Shown: positions 6,826 to 17,112 of the stretch, in pieces
How positions within the stretch are numbered: the stretch's first letter is position 1
Layout: each line of letters starts with the position of its first letter
Source of the DNA: Arsenophonus endosymbiont of Aleurodicus dispersus
Lineage (GTDB): Bacteria > Pseudomonadota > Gammaproteobacteria > Enterobacterales > Enterobacteriaceae
Length of the DNA stretch: 64,000 nucleotides
Direction of reading: 5' to 3'
NCBI RefSeq assembly: GCF_900343015.1
Contig: NZ_LR025108.1
Span: 434,001 to 498,000 of the forward strand
The notes under the pieces: generated by a model
Seen by the model: the letters and a program-made list of their open reading frames with translations, nothing else
Databases searched by the model: none
Told to the model about the DNA's origin: nothing
Made by a program: the position numbers and the translations under genes

Positions 6826-8151
6826 GTGGCGAAGAAACAAGGGTTAGATTTTCTAAGTGCTAAAGGTGGTATAGGCGAACTTAAACGAAAGCTTTTGTTT
6901 GTAATTGGGGCGCTAATTATTTTCCGTATTGGTTCTTTTATTCCAATTCCTGGAATAAATTCCACTGTGCTTGCTAAATTGTTTGAACAGCAAAGAGGCA
7001 CCATAATTGAAATGTTTAATCTGTTTTCTGGTGGTGCGCTTAGTCGTGCTTCTATCTTTGCATTGGGAATTATGCCTTATATTTCAGCATCAATTATTGT
7101 TCAATTACTGACTGTAGTTAATCCTTGGTTAGCAGAGATTAAGAAGGAAGGTGAAGCCGGTCTACGTAAGATTAGTCAATATATACGTTATGGTACTTTG
7201 GTATTAGCGATATTCCAATCTATTGGTGTTGCAACAGGGTTACCTAATGTGGCTGGTATGCAGGGGTTAGTCATTAATCCTGGTTTTATGTTTTATTTTA
7301 CGGCTGTTGTTAGTTTAGTGACAGGAACAATGTTTTTGATGTGGTTAGGTGAGCAAATTACTGAAAGAGGTATTGGAAACGGTATCTCTATTATTATTTT
7401 TGCAGGTATAGTTGCAGGCCTCCTACCGGCTATTTGCCATACCATTGAACAAGCTCGGCAAGGTGATTTGCACTTCCTCTTATTGTTGTTGATTGTAGTT
7501 TTAGTATTTGCAGTGACTTATTTTGTTGTTTTTATGGAGCTTGGTCAGCGTCGTATAGTAGTTAACTACGCAAAACGTCAACAAGGTCGTCGCATTTATG
7601 CTGCACAAAGCACACATTTACCATTAAAAGTAAATATGGCAGGCGTAATTCCTGCAATTTTTGCTTCCAGTATTATACTATTCCCAGGTACAGTAGCTTC
7701 CTGGTTTGGTGATGGAACAGGAAGGGGTTGGCTTACAGCTATTTCAATATATTTGCAGCCAGGACAACCACTTTATACATTACTTTATGCATCTGCAATT
7801 ATCTTCTTCTGTTTCTTTTATACTTCATTAGTTTTTAATCCGAGAGAGACAGCAGATCACCTGAAGAAGTCAGGTGCATTTGTACCAGGAATTCGTCCAG
7901 GAGAGCAAACTGCTAAGTATATTGTCAAAGTAATGACGCGCCTAACATTAGTAGGTGCATTGTACGTTACTTTTATTTGCTTAATTCCGGAGTTTATGCG
8001 TAATGCAATGAAAGTTCCGTTCTATTTTGGTGGCACTTCACTTATGATTGTAGTTGTCGTTATTATGGACTTTATGGCTCAAGTGCAAACTATTATTATG
8101 TCAAGTCAATATGACTCTGCATTGAAAAAAGCGAACCTTAAAGGCAAATAA
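6826..8151 (+). CDS. secY: protein translocase subunit SecY
   Basis: SecY is the channel of the SecYEG translocon in the inner membrane, which exports and inserts proteins. The sequence has ten membrane segments, the plug region ([20 protein letters not shown]), and the cytosolic loop [10 protein letters not shown] used by ribosomes and SecA. I chose the GTG at 6826, which gives VAKKQGLDF and 441 residues, close to the 443 of E. coli. A longer frame would begin inside rplO. A GAGG box lies about 13 bases upstream. Its gene follows rplO in the spc operon. Confidence 0.95.
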
Positions 8152-8193: not shown

Positions 8194-8310
8194 ATGAAAG
8201 TTAGTGCTTCAATCAAGAAATTATGTCGTAATTGTAAAATCATTAAACGTAATGGTGTTGTTCGTGTAATTTGTAGCGTTGAACCAAGACATAAACAGCG
8301 TCAAGGCTAA
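8194..8310 (+). CDS. rpmJ: 50S ribosomal protein L36
   Basis: This 38-residue protein translates as [20 protein letters not shown] followed by a basic tail ending in HKQRQG. It is L36 with the zinc-ribbon ligands C11, C14, C27 and H33 all present (the C+ form). L36 binds 23S rRNA near the sarcin-ricin loop. A GGAGAG ribosome-binding site lies just before the ATG. It is the last gene of the spc operon, between secY and rpsM, as in E. coli. Confidence 0.95.
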
Positions 8311-8358
8311 GAAAGCGGTATTTTCCACTTATACAGTATTTAACTTTAGGAGTGCATA

Positions 8359-9118
<760 letters not shown>

Positions 9119-11622: not shown

Positions 11623-12594
11623 TTAATTTAGCTGCATTTGTGAATAGATCATTCTATTAGGTATAAACCATTCGTGATGAGAGTTTAAAAAATCACTAGC
11701 TAACATTATTTTTTTACCTGCCGGCTGTATTTTTAATATATTTAAAATACCTTTCGCGGTTGCCACTTTAATCCCTGTTTTATCAGCACTTAAAATTATT
11801 CCTGGTGATCTATCAATTTCATGATTGATTACTTCTGCATACCAAACTTTAATAGGTTTATCTGCCATCATAAAATAACTTACTGGCCAAGGATTAAATG
11901 CTCGTATACATCGTTCAATTTGTTCAGCAGAAAGTGTCCAATCAATTAATGCTTCATTTTTACTCAGTTTTTTTGTATAGTTAGCTAATCTTTCGTGTTG
12001 CTTTTCTGGTTTTGCTTTACCTGAAGTGAGCAGATCAAGAGTATGTAGGAGTGCAATAGGGCCAAGTTTTGCAAGTTTTTGATACAGTGTTGCGCTTGTT
12101 TCTTTTAGTTCAATGGGGCAACTTACTTTATATAGCATATCTCCAGTATCCAGTCCAATATCCATTTGCATAATCGTAATACCTGTTTCTTTATCACCAG
12201 CCCAAATGGAGCGTTGAATTGGCGCCGCGCCTCTCCAGCGAGGTAGTAGTGATCCATGAACATTTATGCAGCCCATTGGTAGCATATTTAATACCATTTC
12301 AGGTAAAATTAGGCCATATGCGACAACAATTATAACATCGGCATGTTGATTTTCAATCCAGCGCTGACTTTCTGCTGTTTTTAGAGTTGTTGGCTGTAAA
12401 ATAGGAATGTTATTTTTTTCTGCTAATGTTTTTACTGTGCTTGATGTGAGTCTTCGTCCTCTTCCAGCTGGTTTATCAGGTTGTGTTATAACACCAACAA
12501 TTTGGTACTTATCCTTGATAAGTAGCAAGGCAGCTAAATGTTGTGCTGCAAAATCCGGAGTGCCGGCAAAAATAATTCGTAGATTATTTAACAC
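11623..12594 (-). CDS. fmt: methionyl-tRNA formyltransferase
   Basis: Fmt adds a formyl group from 10-formyl-tetrahydrofolate to the methionine on initiator tRNA in the cytoplasm. The 323-residue protein has the start [16 protein letters not shown], the catalytic region [20 protein letters not shown] (Asn, His and the downstream Asp in [10 protein letters not shown]) and the C-terminal tRNA-binding domain. The start is GTG at 12594. Def, which later removes the formyl group, lies directly upstream on the same strand, 32 bases away, as in other enterobacteria. Confidence 0.95.
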
Positions 12595-13830: not shown

Positions 13831-13850
13831 TAAAACTAGCAAAAAAATAG

Positions 13851-13885
13851 TTAAGTAAATTTTTAGGCGCTCTATAATGCGCCCT
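13851..13885 (+). promoter_or_regulatory. rRNA operon P1-like promoter
   Basis: TATAAT (13873-13878) is followed directly by GCGCC, the G+C-rich discriminator of stringently controlled rRNA promoters. TTAAGT (13851-13856) lies 16 bases upstream, the spacing typical of rrn P1. The A/T-rich stretch before it resembles an UP element. The string CTATAATGCGCC equals that in E. coli rrnB P1. It stands at the head of a collapsed rrn operon. Confidence 0.7.
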
Positions 13886-14311
13886 GACTGAGTAAGTAGT
13901 GAAATAATTGATTAAATTTAATTACATCTACTCAGGATAATGAGACAATCTGTGTGGCGCTGATAAGATATCATCAAAAAATATTTGATTTAAAAGTCTT
14001 GAATAGTGATAAAATAATTAATATATGAATTAATTAGTAGGTAACGACGAAGGCGATAAAATTAAGTAAAGGTTAAAGCTAACACAGTTGGTTTAACTAT
14101 TATGCTATTTAATAATCTGGAACAAGCTAAAAATTGAACCACACATTTTGAAAAAATGATAATGATGAGGATAATTCTCAAAACTTCCACCATAAGTTTT
14201 TTTAGAGATAGAATTTTAGTTGGTTTTAAGATTAAATTAGTTAGTATTTAGTTTAGTAACGTGTTATACGTGTTAGCAAGGCAGCTAAATGAAGCAGGAT
14301 GAATAAAAAAT
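13886..14311 (+). pseudogene. remains of an rRNA operon: leader and 16S-23S spacer, with 16S and 23S deleted
   Basis: Two stretches match conserved non-coding parts of enterobacterial rrn operons. The first, GACAATCTGTGTGG at 13943-13956 and AAAGTCTTGAATAGTGA at about 13993-14009, matches the leader ahead of 16S (E. coli: GACAATCTGTGTGGGCACTC, then AAGTCTCAAGAGTGA). The second, ATAATCTGGAACAAGC at 14112-14127 and AAAATTGAACC after it, matches the 16S-23S spacer. No 16S or 23S body lies between or after them, although the truncated 5S and tRNA-Trp follow. The operon has therefore lost about 4.5 kb in at least two deletions. The matches are from memory and by eye. Confidence 0.75.
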
Positions 14312-14413
14312 TGTCTGGCGGTAATAGCGCGGTGGTCCCACCTGACTCCATACCGAACTCAGAAGTGAAATGCCGTAGCGCCGCATTGTGGGGGTCTTAC
14401 CAGCTACCAGACT
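14312..14413 (+). rRNA. rrf: 5S ribosomal RNA gene with an internal deletion (probably non-functional)
   Basis: The first 72 bases follow enterobacterial 5S rRNA closely, including GCGCGGTGGTCCCACCTGAC and CCGAACTCAGAAGTGAAA. After GCGCCG the 3' part is only about 30 bases instead of 48, and the helix IV hairpin (GGGGTCTCCCC in E. coli) and loop E are lost. The outer helix I still pairs (GTCTGG with CCAGAC). Total length is about 102 bases against 116-120. It stands at the 3' end of a collapsed rrn operon. A working copy must lie elsewhere in the genome. Confidence 0.85.
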
Positions 14414-14443
14414 TTAATTTATGGGACCATTAGTGACATAATG

Positions 14444-14495
14444 GTGTTGTGGTAATCCAGTTAGTTAGAATACAGGCTGGTTATTCCGTGAGCTT
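14444..14495 (+). pseudogene. tRNA-Asp remnant
   Basis: The stretch GGTAATCCAGTTAGTTAGAATAC aligns with the D-arm part of tRNA-Asp (GGTAGTTCAGTNGGTTAGAATAC); I cite it by position, 14451-14473. After it the anticodon arm is altered, the GTC anticodon is gone and the T arm and acceptor 3' half are absent. In E. coli rrnC the order is 5S, aspT, trpT, which is exactly where this lies. Confidence 0.75.
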
Positions 14496-14571
14496 AGGGG
14501 CGTAGTTCAATTGGTAGAACACCGGTCTCCAAAACCGGGAGTTGGGAGTTCGAGTCTCTCCGCCCCTGCCA
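14496..14571 (+). tRNA. trpT: tRNA-Trp (anticodon CCA)
   Basis: The 76-base cloverleaf runs from AGGGGCG to CGCCCCT plus an encoded GCCA end. The anticodon loop is CTCCAAA (14527-14533) with anticodon CCA. It differs from E. coli trpT by only a few bases. It is the intact tail of a collapsed rRNA operon (5S, aspT remnant, trpT), so its own transcription must now rely on the rrn promoter at 13851 or on something downstream of it. Confidence 0.97.
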
Positions 14572-16565: not shown

Positions 16566-16958
16566 TTACTCTTTGGAATCTTCAGCTCCCTTAATTACTT
16601 CCAGGGTTTCATAACCTAAATCACGACTGCGCCAATCAGCTTTAGCTTTAACCATTGGAGAAGATTCAGTAACCGCATGCTTAACACGCATAATCATGCT
16701 GCGGACAACGGCATCATTTAAGCGGAAGTTTATTTCTAACTCATCAATCACTTCTTGCGTCACTTCAACGTTCATCAGAACATAGTGTGCTTTGTGCAAT
16801 TGATTGATTGGATAAGCCAATTGACGGCGACCCCAGTCTTCTAAGCGATGGATTTGACCTTGTGCTTCGGTAATAGATTCACTATAACGCTCAATAATAC
16901 CTGCAACTTGCTCGCTTTGATCTGGATGAACCATAAAAACGATTTCGTAATGACGCAT
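16566..16958 (-). CDS. rpsF: 30S ribosomal protein S6
   Basis: S6 binds S18 and the central domain of 16S rRNA on the platform. The 130 residues begin [18 protein letters not shown] and carry the motif [30 protein letters not shown] ribosome-binding site precedes the ATG. It is the first gene of the operon, and the hairpin upstream may be its S6:S18 control site. Confidence 0.96.
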
Positions 16959-16992
16959 GAGTTTTGCTCCTCACGGATTAATCAGCTTCCTG

Positions 16993-17015
16993 CCATGGTC
17001 AGCCGCCTACCATGG
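16993..17015 (-). promoter_or_regulatory. leader hairpin upstream of rpsF, candidate S6:S18 binding site
   Basis: CCATGGT (16993-16999) pairs perfectly with ACCATGG (17009-17015) around a nine-base loop, which on the minus strand reads AGGCGGCTG. It lies 35-57 bases upstream of the rpsF start. Bacterial rpsF leaders are known to hold an RNA motif bound by the S6:S18 complex to repress the operon; position and a G+C-rich loop fit, but I cannot verify the consensus by eye. Confidence 0.5.
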
Positions 17016-17112
17016 AGGTAAGTAACTTATTTTAGTGCGGCTAAAAATAGACAACTATACCTATCCTCTAGTTAAATCTCAAGCAATAGATTAAATCATA
17101 ACTTATCGCACA

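Follow-up and report, generated by a model that had tools for sequence, protein, structure and literature searches.

Is the short 5S rRNA gene of this Arsenophonus genome a decaying copy, or does it encode a shortened 5S rRNA that the ribosome tolerates? The gene lies at 14314–14413 (plus strand) of the window, the 64,000-nucleotide stretch that we analyzed, which corresponds to positions 434001–498000 of a 663,125-bp genome that consists of one contig. We put the probability at roughly 0.85 that it is a 5S pseudogene whose rRNA operon has, through reductive evolution, been stripped down to a promoter and an indispensable tRNA-Trp gene.

We compared the gene with the intact 5S found elsewhere in the genome and with the Rfam family RF00001. 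From UCUGG to CCAGACU, the window 5S measures 100 nt and the intact 5S (7517–7634 of locus sequence L008, which carries the intact operon) 118 nt, a net loss of 18 nt. In a scan of 2,001 bases, RF00001 matched 14314–14405 (92 nt, with the end as set by Rfam) across model positions 1–120 at 51.5 bits (E = 2.4e-9), above the gathering threshold of 38 and yet 36.6 bits under the intact copy. Both ends of the model are reached only by skipping helix IV, where 4 nt stand for 30 model positions, so that the covariance model does not in substance score a complete 5S. Across the whole genome, RF00001 gave three matches: the intact gene (88.1 bits, 117 nt), a second damaged copy (61.9 bits, 108 nt), and the window copy. 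The original prediction that some 18 bases, helix IV among them, were gone from this gene was thus borne out by length (100 against 118 nt) and by score (51.5 against 88.1 bits), and the full 5S for which it advised a search was found, ∼20 kb from the window copy.

What is left of the gene resembles a gammaproteobacterial 5S rRNA in having helices II and III with the intervening loops and the greater part of helix I. It differs in lacking helix IV and loop E, in falling short of the usual length near 117–120 nt, and in belonging to an operon without 23S or 16S. Ribosomal protein L25 binds the helix IV/loop E region of 5S rRNA, whereas L5 and L18 bind helices II and III, which are intact here. 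The first 64 nt are an exact copy of the intact 5S, and the clean 5′ part that had been predicted is real. The outer helix, described at the time as nearly perfect, is slightly damaged: as read from the sequence, helix I forms seven of its eight pairs, one of them G-U, and UCUGGCGG facing CUACCAGA leaves one C-A mismatch, at a place where the intact copy has CUGCCAGA. Folding-energy z scores were −0.01 for 14312–14415, 1.39 for 14314–14405, −0.71 for the second damaged copy, and −0.72 for the intact 5S; because even the intact gene does not stand out, folding energy says nothing about function in either direction.

The sequence around the gene is an rRNA operon without its large genes. Reading along the plus strand, it begins with a P1-like rrn promoter at 13851–13884, recognized by comparison with relatives (−35 TTAAGT at 13851–13856, a 16-nt spacer, −10 TATAAT at 13873–13878, and then GCGCCC). 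An operon leader follows at 13943–14043 and matches that of the intact operon (L008 2098–2202) at 91.4% identity in 105 columns. The 3′ end of the 16S–23S spacer (ITS1) occupies 14103–14209 and runs into the junction where the 23S gene was lost (84.1% over 107 columns to L008 4128–4228); a StyR-44 match at 14107–14219 is sub-threshold (33 bits, gathering 54). The 23S–5S spacer (ITS2, 14199–14313) lies within 180 bp (14199–14378) that match the intact operon exactly, and ITS2 with the first part of the 5S matches that operon at 98.0% over 196 positions. Behind the short 5S come the 5′ part of a broken tRNA-Asp (14446–14493, limits set by eye), which aligns with the tRNA-Asp of the relatives’ 5S–Asp–Trp operon, has its 3′ part deleted, and is called by neither ARAGORN nor Rfam, and then tRNA-Trp (CCA; 14496–14571), identified by Rfam, ARAGORN, and genome-wide tRNA typing as the sole copy in the genome. 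The Rfam scan found neither 16S nor 23S in the window. Promoter, leader, ITS1, ITS2, 5S, and distal tRNAs therefore stand in operon order with 16S and 23S absent, and a complete operon exists elsewhere in the genome.

The rrnC operon of Escherichia coli ends in 5S–tRNA-Asp–tRNA-Trp. The window has the same order with spacers that align, but it has only truncated forms of 5S and tRNA-Asp and lacks the upstream rRNA genes. Elsewhere in the window, two ribosomal regulatory elements are retained in this reduced genome, an Alpha operon ribosome binding site (8293–8391, 53.3 bits) and an RpsF leader (16956–17041, 52 bits). A neighboring gene, named def from its sequence, has its nearest named relative in the Arsenophonus endosymbiont of Bemisia tabaci (87%). 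A 16S comparison with plasmid records located the genome only in the vicinity of Proteus and Providencia. An 18-bp exact match to the 23S–5S spacer inside a gene named fmt from its sequence (12524–12541, accurate to about one base) is probably due to chance.

The genome as a whole contains one complete operon and three remnants. Whole-genome Rfam searches placed the only complete set of 16S, 23S, and 5S at 423309–428633, with a tRNA-Ala in the spacer; otherwise, 16S matched just two short pieces near 37.8–38.0 kb. The second remnant (L009) has the same promoter type, a leader with a 16S stub, tRNA-Glu, an ITS1–ITS2 fusion at the same place as in the window, and a 108-nt 5S (L009 6438–6545; genome 600438–600545) with a 9-nt gap in the helix IV region relative to the intact gene. 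Its 5S is followed by a terminator-like hairpin shared with the intact operon, and no tRNA lies behind that 5S within the 12 kb of locus sequence. The third remnant (L010, minus strand) holds a leader, a 16S piece (196 bp, 96.4%), tRNA-Ile, and tRNA-Ala. A tRNA search of the genome gave 34 matches above the cut-off, all typed by ARAGORN, and one below it (26.1 bits). Three of the single-copy tRNAs fall one to a remnant: Trp in the window, Glu in L009, and Ile-GAT in L010. tRNA-Ala-TGC occurs twice, in a remnant and in the intact operon, and another tRNA-Asp gene is present at 174616. The genome also encodes L25. A full 5S in the sole complete operon, a short copy in a remnant without 16S or 23S, and the continued presence of L25 together support the pseudogene arm of the original prediction.

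How the large genes were lost can be read in part from the junctions. An 11-bp direct repeat, GTGTTTTTAGA, flanks the 23S gene of the intact operon (at L008 4215 and 7399), and the ITS1–ITS2 fusions of the window and of L009, which differ from one another by three bases, are both located at this repeat. This arrangement suggests that 23S was lost by deletion between the repeat copies. Two deletions, that of 23S and that of a boxA stretch upstream of the leader, sit at the same places in the two remnants, which suggests either that one was copied from the other or that their origin is shared.

A 172-bp tract (14206–14377), made up of 108 bp from the spacer and 64 nt from the 5S, is shared without a difference by all three 5S loci. 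The spacer matches as perfectly as the gene, so the identity is no sign of selection on the 5S; it fits gene conversion or a recent common origin. The tract has no mismatch in 172 positions, compared with 16 in 212 for the leader plus ITS1 (Fisher p about 1e-4) and 5 in 105 for the leader by itself (p = 0.007), figures that are indicative only, as the tract was picked for being clean and the ITS1 part overlaps it by a few bases. Beyond the tract, the window aligns with the 5S 3′ end, spacer, tRNA-Asp, and tRNA-Trp of the relatives’ 5S–Asp–Trp operon. On balance, we favor a recent conversion or common origin for the clean 5′ part, ending at 14377, with the 3′ sequence being the locus’s own and longer decayed. 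The claim that the pseudogene is recent holds in part at best: its clean 5′ portion is shared with the spacer and may reflect gene conversion, and the 3′ part and tRNA-Asp look older. Gene conversion is itself insecure, because the identity is longer than the 100-base reads of the assembly and repeat merging could also produce such a tract. Parts of the published genome description name a recA-encoded protein among the clusters that this symbiont, ARAD, has of its own (PMC6167482).

We searched for 5S genes in nine genomes of the genus, this one included. Eight gave a match above the cut-off, the exception being G008. The order 5S–tRNA-Asp–tRNA-Trp occurs in G001, G003, G004, G005, and G006, and the 5S of this operon is undeleted in G001, G004, and G005 and has a 4-nt insertion in G003, which also holds further poor 5S matches (125 nt at 40.3 bits and 85 nt at 17.4 bits). 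The window tRNA-Trp has two differences from those of G001, G003, G004, and G005 in 76 columns. In G006, a 92-nt match at 34 bits, below the cut-off, recurs on three contigs; these agree throughout the 1,933 bp compared and are perhaps one locus assembled three times. Its 5S has a 24-nt gap in the same domain, with ends that differ from those of the gaps in the window copy. We rejected common descent of the two short genes as the simpler reading on account of these differing gaps; most simply, the alignments would point to a separate loss of the same 5S region in G006. Among the five genomes searched for L25, it was found in G000 (the genome of the window), G002, G003, and G008 and not in G006.

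Side observations concern the rRNA genes of two other genomes of the genus. In G008 (836,724 bp), a 23S gene (L172) is present without an Rfam match to 16S (E ≤ 0.001) or 5S (E ≤ 10), and no 5S was seen directly after it; missing data are the likely cause. In G002 (853,149 bp; L121, L173, and L214), the rRNA genes are split: 16S, tRNA-Ile, tRNA-Ala, and 5S lie together near 68.5–70.4 kb, the tRNAs being read by eye, and 23S stands alone at 222.7–225.7 kb.

Whether the remnant is transcribed bears on why it persists. Between 13849–13884 and the rrn promoter region in G004 there is a single base difference, located in the −35 box (TTGAGT in G004 and G007, TTAAGT in the window), and TATAATGCGC of the promoter region also occurs in G005, G007, and L009. 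A stretch of ∼100 bp containing boxA, present between P1 and the leader in G004, G005, and G007, is absent from the window and from L009. A generic promoter scan of the window stretch returned 6 sites where 5.7 were expected, P1 not among them; the P1 of the remnant was recognized through comparison with relatives. The same scan of the intact operon leader gave 6 sites against 3.7 expected, with no clear P1, and TATAATG is absent from the 2.3 kb up to the 16S of that operon. No terminator-like site was found after tRNA-Trp in the scan of the window stretch. The altered −35 box, the lost boxA, the miss by the generic scan, and the lack of a terminator-like site all count against the use of P1, whose activity at this locus we infer.

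We weighed several other explanations against this evidence. The exact first 64 nt, a score that passes the Rfam gathering threshold, and a P1-like promoter upstream would suit a short 5S that lacks helix IV and loop E and is produced and accepted by ribosomes alongside the full-length RNA. The identity, however, covers the spacer equally, a full 5S and L25 are both at hand, helix I carries a mismatch, and the region has been deleted differently in two genomes of the genus, as expected of decay; we give such a ribosomal role almost no credence. Because helices II and III are unbroken, a partial 5S fold could still form, and this point tells against a mere pseudogene. These L5 and L18 sites also lie under P1, and the short 5S RNA or its DNA might have taken on a new role, for instance as the part of a precursor that tRNA-Trp needs in order to mature, or as an RNA bound to the two proteins. 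That is very unlikely, the 5S part being no better conserved than the spacer and the deletion in the second remnant being another one, with no tRNA following the 5S there within 12 kb. Equally improbable to us is a scenario in which the stripped operons still exchange sequence with one another and with the intact operon, keeping the spacer and the 5′ half of the 5S identical while their flanks decay, and in which the short 5S, driven by P1, is abundant as RNA and serves some residual or new purpose, for instance to hold L5 and L18.

The short gene could also be an artefact of repeats longer than a read being merged or misjoined. The parts of the published account that describe the assembly report whole-genome-amplified DNA and 100-base mate-pair reads (PMC6167482), both of which favor such an error, as does the identical tract of 172 bp, longer than a read. 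Against it, the ITS1–ITS2 fusions of the window and L009 differ by three bases, flanks and leader differences are peculiar to each remnant, the direct repeat where 23S was deleted is just 11 bp long, the 3′ part of the truncated 5S is unique sequence that aligns with its own operon type, and coverage is given as 1,698 in those parts of the account (PMC6167482). We consider an assembly error improbable.

We thus favor a 5S pseudogene in a stripped operon. The locus has lost 16S, 23S, the boxA stretch, the 5S helix IV region, and a portion of tRNA-Asp, and it keeps the P1-like promoter and tRNA-Trp, an outcome that we attribute to reductive evolution. What is kept is a promoter and an indispensable tRNA: tRNA-Trp and the promoter are nearly unchanged while 5S and tRNA-Asp are damaged. 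The locus would persist since P1 presumably transcribes the only tRNA-Trp gene, and the short 5S would be carried along as a passenger without entering ribosomes.

Such a locus is known in kind. In SOPE, the endosymbiont of Sitophilus, the available parts of the genome report describe rRNA operons lost in place with operon-borne tRNA-Glu, tRNA-Ile, and tRNA-Ala retained (PMC3914690). The loss in place and the retained tRNAs are alike in the two symbionts; SOPE differs in that, as far as those parts of the report go, its tRNAs sit in two complete operons and it has isolated 16S copies, whereas Trp, Glu, and Ile lie here in remnants without complete rRNA genes (PMC3914690). In the literature on short 5S, 5S pseudogenes, and rRNA operons of Arsenophonus and other endosymbionts, searched mostly among papers outside subscription, we found no report of this locus; the papers listed for bacterial 5S rRNA pseudogenes dealt, by title, with innate immunity or disease. 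The locus is ordinary genome decay, clearly recorded. It qualifies the published count for Arsenophonus ARAD of the whitefly Aleurodicus dispersus (663,125 bp, 34 tRNAs, and 16S, 23S, and 5S in 1, 1, and 3 copies, as given in the parts of the paper available; PMC6167482): two of the three 5S genes are damaged and lie in operon remnants. A 5S without a whole arm can pass the Rfam gathering threshold, so lengths should be checked when the 5S genes of reduced genomes are counted automatically. All three remnants keep a tRNA gene (Trp, Glu, or Ile-GAT) that has no other copy, and rRNA operons can thus shrink to tRNA transcription units.
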